Shown: positions 56,212-59,989 of the stretch, in pieces
Numbering within the stretch: position 1 is the first letter of the stretch
Layout: the number at the start of each line of letters is the position of its first letter
DNA from: Candidatus Poribacteria bacterium
Lineage (GTDB): Bacteria > Poribacteria > WGA-4E > WGA-3G
NCBI GenBank assembly: GCA_026702755.1
Contig: JAPPBX010000096.1
Location: 1-64,000, forward strand
Direction of reading: 5' to 3'
DNA length: 64,000 nt
Notes under the pieces: model-generated
What the model saw: only the letters and a program-made list of their open reading frames with translations
What the model was told of the DNA's origin: nothing
Database searches by the model: none
Made by a program: the position numbers and the translations under genes

Positions 56212-56590
56212 CAAGAGTTCGATAATAAAAACCCAAGTACAAGTTTCTCAATGAACCTTGAAAGCCATTTTTTCTGTGCGACTTTCGGTAAGTTCCCGTT
56301 CAATCCAGTCTACGTGCTTAAGTTGAACTCATATTATCCTAAAAACTTGAGAAAAAAATGAATTCGTGATATGCTGTAATTTAAGTCCCATTTTGACAAA
56401 TAGAATTACTGTCATCTTGGGTTTATTTTCTGTACTTGTTGTTACCACACTAAGCCGTTTAAATAGATAGAAAGTTAGAAGGTTTACCCAAGTATACTGA
56501 AGGCTAATAACGCATCTCGCCAAGAGCCACCCCATCCGACCACAAAAGGTGCTACGCAGCAATTAGGTACCACAGTTGACTAAATAAATT
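56212..56590. other. 379-nt intergenic stretch, no gene seen
   Basis: AT-rich sequence between the MATE gene and the 1132-residue helicase-like gene. It has stops in all frames and no tRNA-like fold. A TTGACA at about 56394 has no good -10 partner. No Shine-Dalgarno is visible before the ATG at 56591. Confidence 0.5.
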
Positions 56591-59500
56591 ATGGATTTTT
56601 TAAAAGATGCCATTCAGCGTTGTCATCAACGACACAGAAATCCGCTTCGGCAGCGGAAGACAATTGTAACACCTGCCTTGTACAAGAGTCTTCCTTATCA
56701 TTTCAGGGTCTATTGCGCGTGGAGATATCCCGTAAGACTCTATGAACTTGAACAGGCAGACATCTCCTTCATGCCGATAGGATTTGCCCCTCAACACGAC
56801 CACGGTCCGCGGAATTTTGGAGGTAAACGGTTTTTAAAACGCCAAGGCATAGAAGATTGGGAAGCCGGACAATGGCACAGATCGTGGGGAATTCAGGTAT
56901 ATACCGGTGCTCCTTCCGAACGCGATGGTGCGCAGTGGCACGATATTGATTTTAAATATGAAGCAATCTGTGCCGCACCCGACGCTGTATTAGCCTGCGT
57001 GGAGGCACTCGTCAATGCTGTTGCGAACCCACTATTAACATTGTCAAAGTCCGGTGGGTTGCGTTTTTCTTGCAGAGTGCAAAATTATCTCCATCCGAAT
57101 ACTGATGAAGCGAAGCAGTATATCTATAAACATGCACCGACAGCAGAAAATCCATTCTATCGTGATGTGTATCTTGAAATTTTTGGTGACGAAAGTTACA
57201 GTCGCTGGGACGCACGCTACGAGATCCTGCATGGAAATCTTGTAGATCCACCTATTATTTCCAAGGAAGTACTCTTTGCCCCCATTGATATACTTCGTGC
57301 TGCACTTCACGAACCTGCACCACCTCAACAAGAAAAACTGAACCTTGTTTTGCAAACCACCAGTGCCCCGCCATCTTTTGGTTCATATAACCTAAATCTC
57401 GCGAAGGAAGCACTTCTGAAGCGCGGGTTTTCTTACGTCCAACAAAAAGACAGTATTTACCACTGGACACTACCCGATGGCAAAATAAACGATGAACACC
57501 TATCGTTATGGGAGCAAGAGGGGACTGTGTGGATCCGCGCATCTATGTCTGATGCTGGACTACCAATAGAAGCAACACGCATAACAGATGTCTGGGACGA
57601 TACTGGTATTCTTCCATCAATATCGGATGCTGGATTACCTGTGCCGGATAAGGTGCTCCCTGTACGGGAAGGAAAACTGAGTCCGTTGGCACTAAAGCGT
57701 CCATCTCCGGTGCTGCACAAGCAGGAACGCGAAGACAAGGTTTACGCGACACTTGAAGAGAGTGCTGTTCAGATGAGACATGTTTTCAATCGGGATGCAC
57801 GTATTCTTGGACTTATTGCCGAAGCAGGATCAGGAAAAAGTTACACAGCAGAATCCTATGTCCTCAACGGTGGGGCAATCAGTCTAACCGCGAAATCTCT
57901 TTTAGCTAACAAGGTGGAACAACGCTTTCAAAAACGGGACTTGCCATCGGTTGCCCGCAGGAAAACTCGAAGATACTTATGGGAGCAGGTGAAGGAGGTA
58001 CCCATTGAGGTGCGGATGGCGAACCCTTTTCAACGCGGCAGTGTTTGTGAGGATCCTGAGCGATGTGCCGCGCTTGAGAATAGGGGTGGGAATCCAAGTG
58101 AAAGTATCTGTCCGCAGTGCCCAGTCTATGCGGAGTGTCAGGAGCGCGGCTATTTATCGCAATTCACCACATTAAAAGATGCCAAGGTACAGATATCCAG
58201 CCCGGCTAGGCTATTTTTGGATCCACAACATTCAGAAATGGTAGAAGAAATACTTGAGCAAGTGGACGACACAGAGCGACTTTGTATCATTGATGAAGCG
58301 GAAGCGTATACGATGTTTTTACCGTGCGATATATCAAAGAGCACCTTGGAAGCGTGGCGTGTGAACTGGCAAGGAAATGCCTTGGGTAACTTTGCAAATG
58401 CCTTGCTAAACGCGTTGGAAATCAAAACCGGATTTAATGATAATGCTGTCGGGCGGGTCCGCGCAGCGATGCACGCATTTGAAGGACAAGAAGAAACACT
58501 CGTCGAACAGATGTGTCAAGTCAATATACCCGGTAAAGTGGTGACGCGCGACTTTGTTGATGATGAATCCGGAAAAGCATTGGCACGTTTTACTATTGAG
58601 TTTAAAGACGGAGCCTCTGCTTACGTTCCTTTGGACGCTGCCGCTGCTGATAAACTTATGGCAAAAGGGCTACCTGTTTTTGAACTTGATACCTCTGAAC
58701 TAAACGAAGACATAAAAATCCCAATGTCGATGACACAAGCGATCGAATTGGGGATCTTGGACGTGTCAAGCGTGGAGAGTATTCGGGCACTGCCGACAGT
58801 GTATAAGAATGCGAACTGGACGTTTTGGCATCAGCTCAAACGTTTTTTTGCATATTACACATGGGATGCCGATGCTCCAATGTCGTGGACTGGATATAAC
58901 ATGAAATTCTGGGTGCCACCAGTATTGCATCCGAGTGTCAAACGTCTTCTGTTCATGTCCTCAACGCTTTCTGAGCGCGATCTCCGTAGGGCGTTTCCAG
59001 ATGAGGAAATTGAGGTCTCCCATATCAAACCGACAGCCTGGCTCCCGGGAAATCGGGTCTTTCAGATTCGCACAGGTATCTATCCACGAGAAGCGGTCTT
59101 AAACTACGACACCGATTGGGATGTTCTCGGTATGTCTGAAACGGGGCGGCGCTTTTTTCTCGGTATCCAATCGGAAATTGAGAAGGATCCGAGCGTTAAG
59201 CATGCAATCATCACCTCCGCACCGGTAACGCGACATTTGCAGAACATCGCAGCAAAGGAGAATGTCTGTTTTGTGACAGGTTTCAAAAAGATAGAAGAGT
59301 CAGACGACTCTCCTTTTGAAACAGCAGAAGTCATTTGGATAGTCGGCGCACCGTATTGGACCCCGGGTATTATTTGGAAACGGGCGCAGATTTTGTTTGG
59401 AAATGACGAAAAACCCCTCTGTTATGATCGGGTAGTGGAATCTGGTATCTATAAAGACGAACGTGTCCAGAGCATTTATGAACGGAATACCACCGGTTTA

Positions 59501-59989
59501 CTTACACAGATTGTAGGCCGAGCGGGGTTGAACCGCTTCCCAAACAAGACAGTGGTATTACTCACGAGTTCGCCCTTGCCCAACATCACTGATAGACCTG
59601 AAACATTGCTTTTCGACTGGGAAGATTTTGAGATCGCTGGTGGGTTAGATAAACTCGCTGAGACAATAGCGGCTCGCGAGCATTTTGAAATTGAACGGGA
59701 CAACCTCACTGCGGAATCCAGCAGGGAGGAGATAGAACATGTTTTGGGAATCTCCAAAAGCCAAGCAAATCGTGTGTTAATGAAACTTAGGGGCGGGAAA
59801 CTCCAACGTATTCCCTTCCGCGAGCAGATTTTCTCGCTTCTCTCCAGTGGAGAGAAAAAGACAGCAAAACTCATTGAAGCTATTGAAGGACATCCAGGTT
59901 CCATAAAAAATGAACTCAAGCGTCTCGTTGATGCTGGTGAGATTGTGAAAGTCCGGCGGAGTATGTATGCTCTCCCACCTCAGCCATAA
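56591..59989 (+). CDS. solitary 1132-residue XPD/DinG-like helicase fusion protein
   Basis: Function not known. Residues about 400-1000 look like a superfamily 2 helicase of the XPD/DinG type: Walker A AEAGSGKS (410-417), then a cysteine group C486, C492, C507, C510, C516 between motifs I and II where XPD/DinG carry a 4Fe-4S cluster, Walker B IIDEAEAY (D568, E569), a motif III-like MSSTLS (789-794), a VGAPYWTPG segment (918-926), and motif VI-like QIVGRAGLNR (973-982). The C-terminal 120 residues contain two winged-helix-like stretches. Residues 1-390 are unrecognised; WHDIDF (116-121) and SKSGGLRFS (152-160) recall archaeo-eukaryotic primase motifs but lack the usual His. It stands alone with no Shine-Dalgarno. 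Possible roles: DNA repair or defence or a remnant replication module. Confidence 0.7.
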   Translation: MDFLKDAIQRCHQRHRNPLRQRKTIVTPALYKSLPYHFRVYCAWRYPVRLYELEQADISFMPIGFAPQHDHGPRNFGGKRFLKRQGIEDWEAGQWHRSWGIQVYTGAPSERDGAQWHDIDFKYEAICAAPDAVLACVEALVNAVANPLLTLSKSGGLRFSCRVQNYLHPNTDEAKQYIYKHAPTAENPFYRDVYLEIFGDESYSRWDARYEILHGNLVDPPIISKEVLFAPIDILRAALHEPAPPQQEKLNLVLQTTSAPPSFGSYNLNLAKEALLKRGFSYVQQKDSIYHWTLPDGKINDEHLSLWEQEGTVWIRASMSDAGLPIEATRITDVWDDTGILPSISDAGLPVPDKVLPVREGKLSPLALKRPSPVLHKQEREDKVYATLEESAVQMRHVFNRDARILGLIAEAGSGKSYTAESYVLNGGAISLTAKSLLANKVEQRFQKRDLPSVARRKTRRYLWEQVKEVPIEVRMANPFQRGSVCEDPERCAALENRGGNPSESICPQCPVYAECQERGYLSQFTTLKDAKVQISSPARLFLDPQHSEMVEEILEQVDDTERLCIIDEAEAYTMFLPCDISKSTLEAWRVNWQGNALGNFANALLNALEIKTGFNDNAVGRVRAAMHAFEGQEETLVEQMCQVNIPGKVVTRDFVDDESGKALARFTIEFKDGASAYVPLDAAAADKLMAKGLPVFELDTSELNEDIKIPMSMTQAIELGILDVSSVESIRALPTVYKNANWTFWHQLKRFFAYYTWDADAPMSWTGYNMKFWVPPVLHPSVKRLLFMSSTLSERDLRRAFPDEEIEVSHIKPTAWLPGNRVFQIRTGIYPREAVLNYDTDWDVLGMSETGRRFFLGIQSEIEKDPSVKHAIITSAPVTRHLQNIAAKENVCFVTGFKKIEESDDSPFETAEVIWIVGAPYWTPGIIWKRAQILFGNDEKPLCYDRVVESGIYKDERVQSIYERNTTGLLTQIVGRAGLNRFPNKTVVLLTSSPLPNITDRPETLLFDWEDFEIAGGLDKLAETIAAREHFEIERDNLTAESSREEIEHVLGISKSQANRVLMKLRGGKLQRIPFREQIFSLLSSGEKKTAKLIEAIEGHPGSIKNELKRLVDAGEIVKVRRSMYALPPQP

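Follow-up and report, generated by a model that had tools for sequence, protein, structure and literature searches.

An element replicase was probably captured and expanded in Poribacteria with altered catalysis; most copies of the resulting chromosomal family are without ATPase motifs, yet they are maintained by purifying selection. The member analyzed here lies at 56591..59989 (+) of the window, the whole 64,000-nucleotide stretch of DNA under analysis. It has an ATG start and no internal stop and encodes a 1132 aa protein. Its identity (a primase-polymerase of the archaeo-eukaryotic type, AEP, followed by an XPD/DinG-like helicase and a winged helix) and its origin from a mobile element are very likely. 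A full-length paralog elsewhere in the same genome was 57% identical to the window protein, and homologues in relatives were 45-81% identical from end to end, indicating that the ORF did not arise by chance but encodes a conserved protein. No significant family match to the window protein was found in Pfam, NCBIfam, PHROGs or PADLOC; the best PADLOC match was PprDinG, with a non-significant E-value of 0.06.

Domain composition of the window protein

The AlphaFold model of the full protein had a mean pLDDT of 83.3. In Foldseek its best structural matches were XPD structures (4a15, E 1.3e-9); the NrS-1 primase-polymerase of a phage was among the weaker ones, and viral structures annotated as DNA primase/polymerase (phage Prim_Pol) matched as well. 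Matches to PDB sequences in the profile searches were weak and of HTH type and were taken as chance.

The N-terminal region (residues 1-245; 56591..57325, +) is predicted from its motifs and model to be a divergent AEP (PrimPol-like) domain with the corresponding activity; the assignment draws on AlphaFold, on PDB matches and on identity to the primase-helicases of mobile elements (referred to below as element proteins). When residues 1-250 were modeled separately (pLDDT 84), the first PDB matches were NrS-1 PrimPol (E 0.013, probability 0.92), the pRN1 primase and the LigD polymerase domain, with CAPP and PriS lower among the matches. All the top matches were thus AEPs, at a modest level of similarity (TM about 0.34, no PDB match at E <= 0.001). 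AEP motifs have been defined as hhhDhD/E (I), sxH (II) and hD/E (III) (PMC5862659). The window protein carries motif I as WHDIDF (D118 and D120; 56936..56953, +) and motif III as LEI (E196; 57173..57181, +), the latter assigned by pattern and not by superposed coordinates. In the motif II region, SGGLR (57050..57064, +), the histidine is replaced by R158. The first-pass annotation had rightly picked out WHDIDF and SGG as primase-like hints, these being AEP motif I and the motif II region. D118 and R158 were present in 80/80 family copies (100%), E196 was 91% conserved with an acidic residue in 74/80, and D/E stood at position 120 in 56/80 (70%). Element proteins read TDLDF and TDFD at motif I, also have the motif II arginine, and are invariant at E196. 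Since the second acid of motif I was lost in 24/80 copies, polymerase activity may also be fading. The idea that the AEP domain is dead in most copies, as the helicase is, was rejected by these counts, the acidic residues being largely kept.

No Pfam AEP model matched the window protein or any of 64 family N-termini, indicating that these domains form a family new at the sequence level in a superfamily already known. The N-terminus, described at first as an unrecognised domain, is therefore without a match among curated families but recognizable by its fold, and the novelty claimed for the protein, which a common N-terminal domain was expected to diminish, drops somewhat. The linker that follows (residues 246-385; 57326..57745, +) aligns over the part of the element proteins where their zinc finger lies, but lacks its cysteines, and was among the fastest-evolving regions in most ortholog pairs.

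The helicase region (residues 386-1000; 57746..59590, +) has the fold of an XPD/DinG-like SF2 helicase, as the match to 4a15 indicates, which agrees with the initial reading of the gene. Walker A (motif I, AEAGSGKS, residues 410-417; 57818..57841, +) is intact and follows GxxxxGK[ST]. Motif II (residues 568-571; 58292..58303, +) reads DEAE as against the DEAH type, and motif III is SST (residues 790-792; 58958..58966, +). Between motifs I and II lies the predicted iron-sulfur site that had also been noticed at first, a cysteine cluster with the spacing C486-x5-C-x14-C-x2-C-x5-C516 (58046..58138, +). Its five conserved residues, predicted to hold a 4Fe-4S cluster, were C486, C507, C510 and C516, each at 100%, and C492 at 92%, in the 62 copies having the region. 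Motif VI of XPD/DinG helicases is expected as QxxGRxxR. The window protein reads QIVGRAGL there (59507..59530, +), and the absence of the last arginine bears out the earlier remark that the motif is degenerate, even in this copy. Judged from its intact motifs I and II, the window copy may keep some ATPase activity.

Residues 1001-1130 (59591..59980, +) contain winged-helix/HTH elements, as had been proposed. The assignment comes from a short structural match to the wHTH structure 3f6v and from weak Pfam matches to TrmB and AbiEi_4. This C-terminal region has little in common with the element proteins; its dN/dS was 0.00-0.26 among the ortholog pairs listed.

Copy number, motif loss and selection

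A search with the window protein found the family in 31/60 relatives, all of one genus. In the profile search 50/84 genomes of the phylum matched, nearly all of them from two genera (g1 and g22) of one Poribacteria family. One further genome (G047) gave a weak match (E 1.5e-6), another (G018) contained only a distant relative, no match was obtained in other Poribacteria genera among the 84 genomes, and a handful of g1 genomes (about five) were without a match. The window's own genome has seven copies, two being truncated where a contig ends, and five complete or nearly complete genomes had 12 (G021), at least 10 (G028), 9 (G009), 5 (G005) and 1 (G017). Copies within one genome were 41-86% identical to each other, indicating that the expansion is old. 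The gene thus stands alone locally, as first described, between a MatE transporter gene and a gene for a xylose-isomerase-like TIM barrel, but it belongs to a multicopy, lineage-wide family.

Shorter copies (about 770-1050 aa) lacked part or all of helicase domain 1. Two own-genome contigs (C108, L181:1-1525; C76, L183:5187-6717) end inside family copies near residue 500; those copies are 86% identical to each other, which suggests that the assembly broke on repeated family sequence. Clusters of four copies, two short and two long, were seen once each in G021 (L115) and G028 (L189), and in the G021 cluster a TnpB-like ORF lies between family copies.

Several ortholog groups share locus-specific neighbors, and these neighbors differ between the groups. 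Beyond such synteny and generic genes, no recurrent neighbor of the copies was found, so the neighborhood survey suggested by the first-pass annotation did not reveal the defence islands it was meant to find. Homology between copies at different loci was essentially confined to the CDS, and no conserved flanks or terminal repeats were seen by eye.

In most copies of the family the motor motifs have been lost. Walker A was kept in 15/74 scorable copies and lost in 59/74, and the DE of motif II was kept in 20/80 only. Over 80 copies, column conservation averaged 0.76 for the N-terminal domain and 0.77 for the C-terminal region, against 0.63 for each of the two helicase parts. Most catalytic positions of the helicase fell below its own mean: 0.41 for the Walker A glycine, 0.42 and 0.29 for D and E of motif II, and 0.36 and 0.31 for Q and R of motif VI, with the Walker lysine at 0.71. 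On the family tree (FastTree, root not known) the copies keeping Walker A were located in the clade of the window gene and on a few other branches, and Walker A required at least 5 changes, DE at least 10 and D/E120 at least 12.

Most family copies have open frames of 1100 codons, and some have stops or deletions. For most ortholog pairs dN/dS (approximate NG86 estimates throughout) was 0.11-0.28 across species. It was 0.21-0.28 for pairs from clades keeping a Walker-A-like sequence and 0.11-0.17 for ortholog pairs from a clade in which TGIGPWD(K/E) has taken the place of Walker A, showing that loss of the ATPase motifs was not simple decay. The window gene and its G017 ortholog gave 0.20; the latter has a TAG stop in place of W90.

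The MatE-TIM locus and element relatives

In G017 and G020, as in the window, the genes for MatE and the TIM barrel stand on either side of the family copy, and one of the two flanks was found in G006 and G014. In four relatives (G007, G028, G021 and G032) the two flanking homologies were only about 20-75 bp apart. The segment 56213..60110 of the window is absent from G007, which has 43 bp in place of 3.9 kb, and the G017 insert begins exactly at the end of homology with G007. The sequence AAAAACTTGA at both ends of the insert at the window locus is suggestive; it is also part of a common promoter, and therefore no insertion mechanism is claimed. A similar AAAAACTTGA context was found upstream of several other family copies. 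A site resembling a promoter (56347..56375, +), TTGAGA-N17-TATGCT with a TG preceding the second hexamer, lies 215 nt upstream of the ATG; the consensus scan gave 10 such sites against 5.6 expected, so this one is weak on its own. The window gene was more divergent (73-81%) than the flanking MatE (86-88%) and TIM-barrel (95-96%) proteins in the same genomes. By eye, the MatE-TIM site was variable in content (L165, L166, L174, L175), holding Uma2-type, TnpB-like or sigma-factor-like ORFs or almost nothing.

The distant relative in G018 (L114:4476-7454) is a 993 aa protein that joins a BT4734-type AEP (PF08800, E 6.6e-24) to a helicase of the window protein's type (24% identity over 625 aa, E 2e-17), indicating that one helicase lineage occurs with two different AEP families. 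It is encoded in a plasmid-like, integrative island (L114, L248) together with an integrase, ParA, Rep3 initiators and a DNA methylase. A search with this protein found two element proteins with the N-terminal domain of the window family, in G082 (L246:9336-12485) and G070 (L227:281-3622). In both, DxD and Walker A are intact and a zinc-finger-like C/H pattern is present; over 244 aa the G082 protein matched the window protein at 41% identity (E 5e-46). Its island contains an integrase, repressor-like HTHs and a Dam methylase around the primase-helicase gene. Profile-profile comparison linked the family to the element proteins at 100%, with E 5.6e-46 over 840 columns. A third element-type protein, in G026 (L247:5046-8012), has a truncated N-terminus, and a Rep3 initiator is located on the same contig. 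Intact ATPase motifs and the zinc-finger-like pattern were observed in the AEP-helicases of G082, G070 and G026; in the two of these proteins scanned with Pfam, neither the AEP nor the helicase gave a match.

A phage contig of 27.8 kb (IMGVR_UViG_3300027951_000001; L250:1726-4929) has HNH and tape-measure genes in the vicinity of a primase-helicase gene from the same lineage of helicases; the N-terminus of the encoded protein matches phage DNA primase families. No match to the window protein or the N-terminal profile was found in the viral contigs searched, and the phages and plasmids searched with both gave nothing credible, only two weak ABC-ATPase matches. The G082 element protein (L246) likewise had no match in the phages or plasmids searched. 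Because the element proteins have intact motifs and lie in mobile surroundings, we infer that the transfer went from element to chromosome. The first-pass annotation had considered a stranded replication module, which comes close to the origin, given the intact-motif relatives in islands with integrase, Rep3, ParA or methylase genes and on one phage contig. Purifying selection even on copies without ATPase motifs does not support stranded in the sense of useless.

Candidate roles and described systems

Retention by selection after loss of the motor indicates that the proteins probably have a new job, described by nobody. As a candidate for it we tentatively favor interference with the replication of related mobile elements, given the descent from an element replicase, the patchy distribution, the multiple divergent paralogs and the precedent, reviewed in PMC8987985, of exapted element genes serving mainly in conflict and defence. 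The ancestral replicase would have become an exapted, multicopy chromosomal family in which the winged helix and the cysteine domain target DNA, the AEP domain, whose acidic residues persist in roughly two thirds of the copies, binds or extends primer-template, and most copies can do without unwinding. By binding the intermediates formed as related elements replicate, the paralogs would then act as a protein-level decoy and hinder that replication. The full picture, lineage-wide exapted primase-helicases with the motor as scaffold and AEP and DNA binding kept, acting as a multi-paralog system against related elements, is rather speculative. Family copies and the presence of related elements had no visible relation, the elements seen being too few for a test, and neither PADLOC nor the neighbor survey pointed to a defence island or a known defence system at the copies.

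A one-gene defence system, the option raised at first, would sense foreign DNA and block it with an active polymerase and helicase. The intact motifs I and II and AEP acids of the window copy fit such a system, as do the multiple, patchily distributed and divergent paralogs and the greater divergence of the window gene relative to both flanking proteins. We nevertheless consider it unlikely, because most copies have lost the ATPase motifs, motif VI is degenerate even in the window copy, and direct evidence in the form of a PADLOC family or a recurrent neighbor was not obtained. A comparably low chance is given to a host regulator or genome-maintenance protein, whose winged helices would bind chromosomal sites, with the rest a scaffold, in transcription control or repair. 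It would account for the C-terminal region being among the most constrained parts and for several ortholog groups at conserved loci, and it would need no ATPase; but neighboring genes differ between those groups, about five genomes of the genus are without the family, and there is no obvious reason for such a protein to keep the AEP acids and the cysteine cluster.

A self-spreading gene, that is, a mobile element made up of one gene, with an active copy that moves and other copies that are passengers, appears improbable. The occurrence of one subfamily at different loci in different genomes, the MatE-TIM site, occupied in some close relatives and empty in others, with AAAAACTTGA on both sides, and the tandem clusters point in this direction. 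Against it, no terminal repeats were seen, homology between loci is essentially CDS only, copies within a genome are at most 86% identical and never near-identical, several ortholog groups have locus-specific neighbors, dead copies are kept by selection, and AAAAACTTGA is also part of the common promoter. Once stranded, the replication protein of a mobile element usually disappears or decays. That the copies are functionless relics of integrated elements would agree with the stops (as at W90 in G017) and deletions in some of them, but the open frames in most copies and the dN/dS values for most pairs already disfavor this explanation and make it very improbable.

Returning to the captured replicase, a family of up to twelve copies per genome that is preserved across species despite loss of the motor offers a test case for the conversion of a replicase into a host protein, and, since some paralogs in the series have ATPase and AEP residues that others lack, the question of its role can be taken apart by experiment. 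Should the anti-element role prove true, an uncultured sponge-symbiont phylum would possess protein-based immunity of a new kind.

TOTE-type conflict systems also fuse an AEP to an SF2 helicase and are suspected of a role in conflict; compared with these as generally understood, the window protein has an N-terminal domain that matches no Pfam AEP or PADLOC model. A literature search, thin on subscription journals, found no description of an AEP of this sequence joined to an XPD-like helicase as an exapted, multicopy family with a decayed motor. AEP-helicase fusions in mobile elements are already known (PMC5862659). Compared by description, the PrimPol-PV1 supergroup (PMC5862659) and NrS-1 PrimPol (PMC8718748) share with the window family an N-terminal AEP, a helicase region and a C-terminal winged helix, and proteins related to the family likewise reside in integrative elements. 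The family differs from them in having no Pfam match, an arginine for the motif II histidine and an XPD/DinG-like helicase of the Fe-S type, and in being chromosomal and multicopy with helicase motifs mostly lost. With the XPD/DinG SF2 Fe-S helicases the window protein has the fold, Walker A and the cysteine cluster between motifs I and II in common, but it differs in DEAE, in a motif VI without its last arginine and in the fused AEP and winged-helix domains, and most of its paralogs are without ATPase motifs. The BT4734-like primase-helicases of the G018 island and the phage contig share the helicase lineage and the conserved cysteines, and differ in having another AEP family (PF08800 in G018), intact ATPase motifs and an HTH in place of the C-terminal region.
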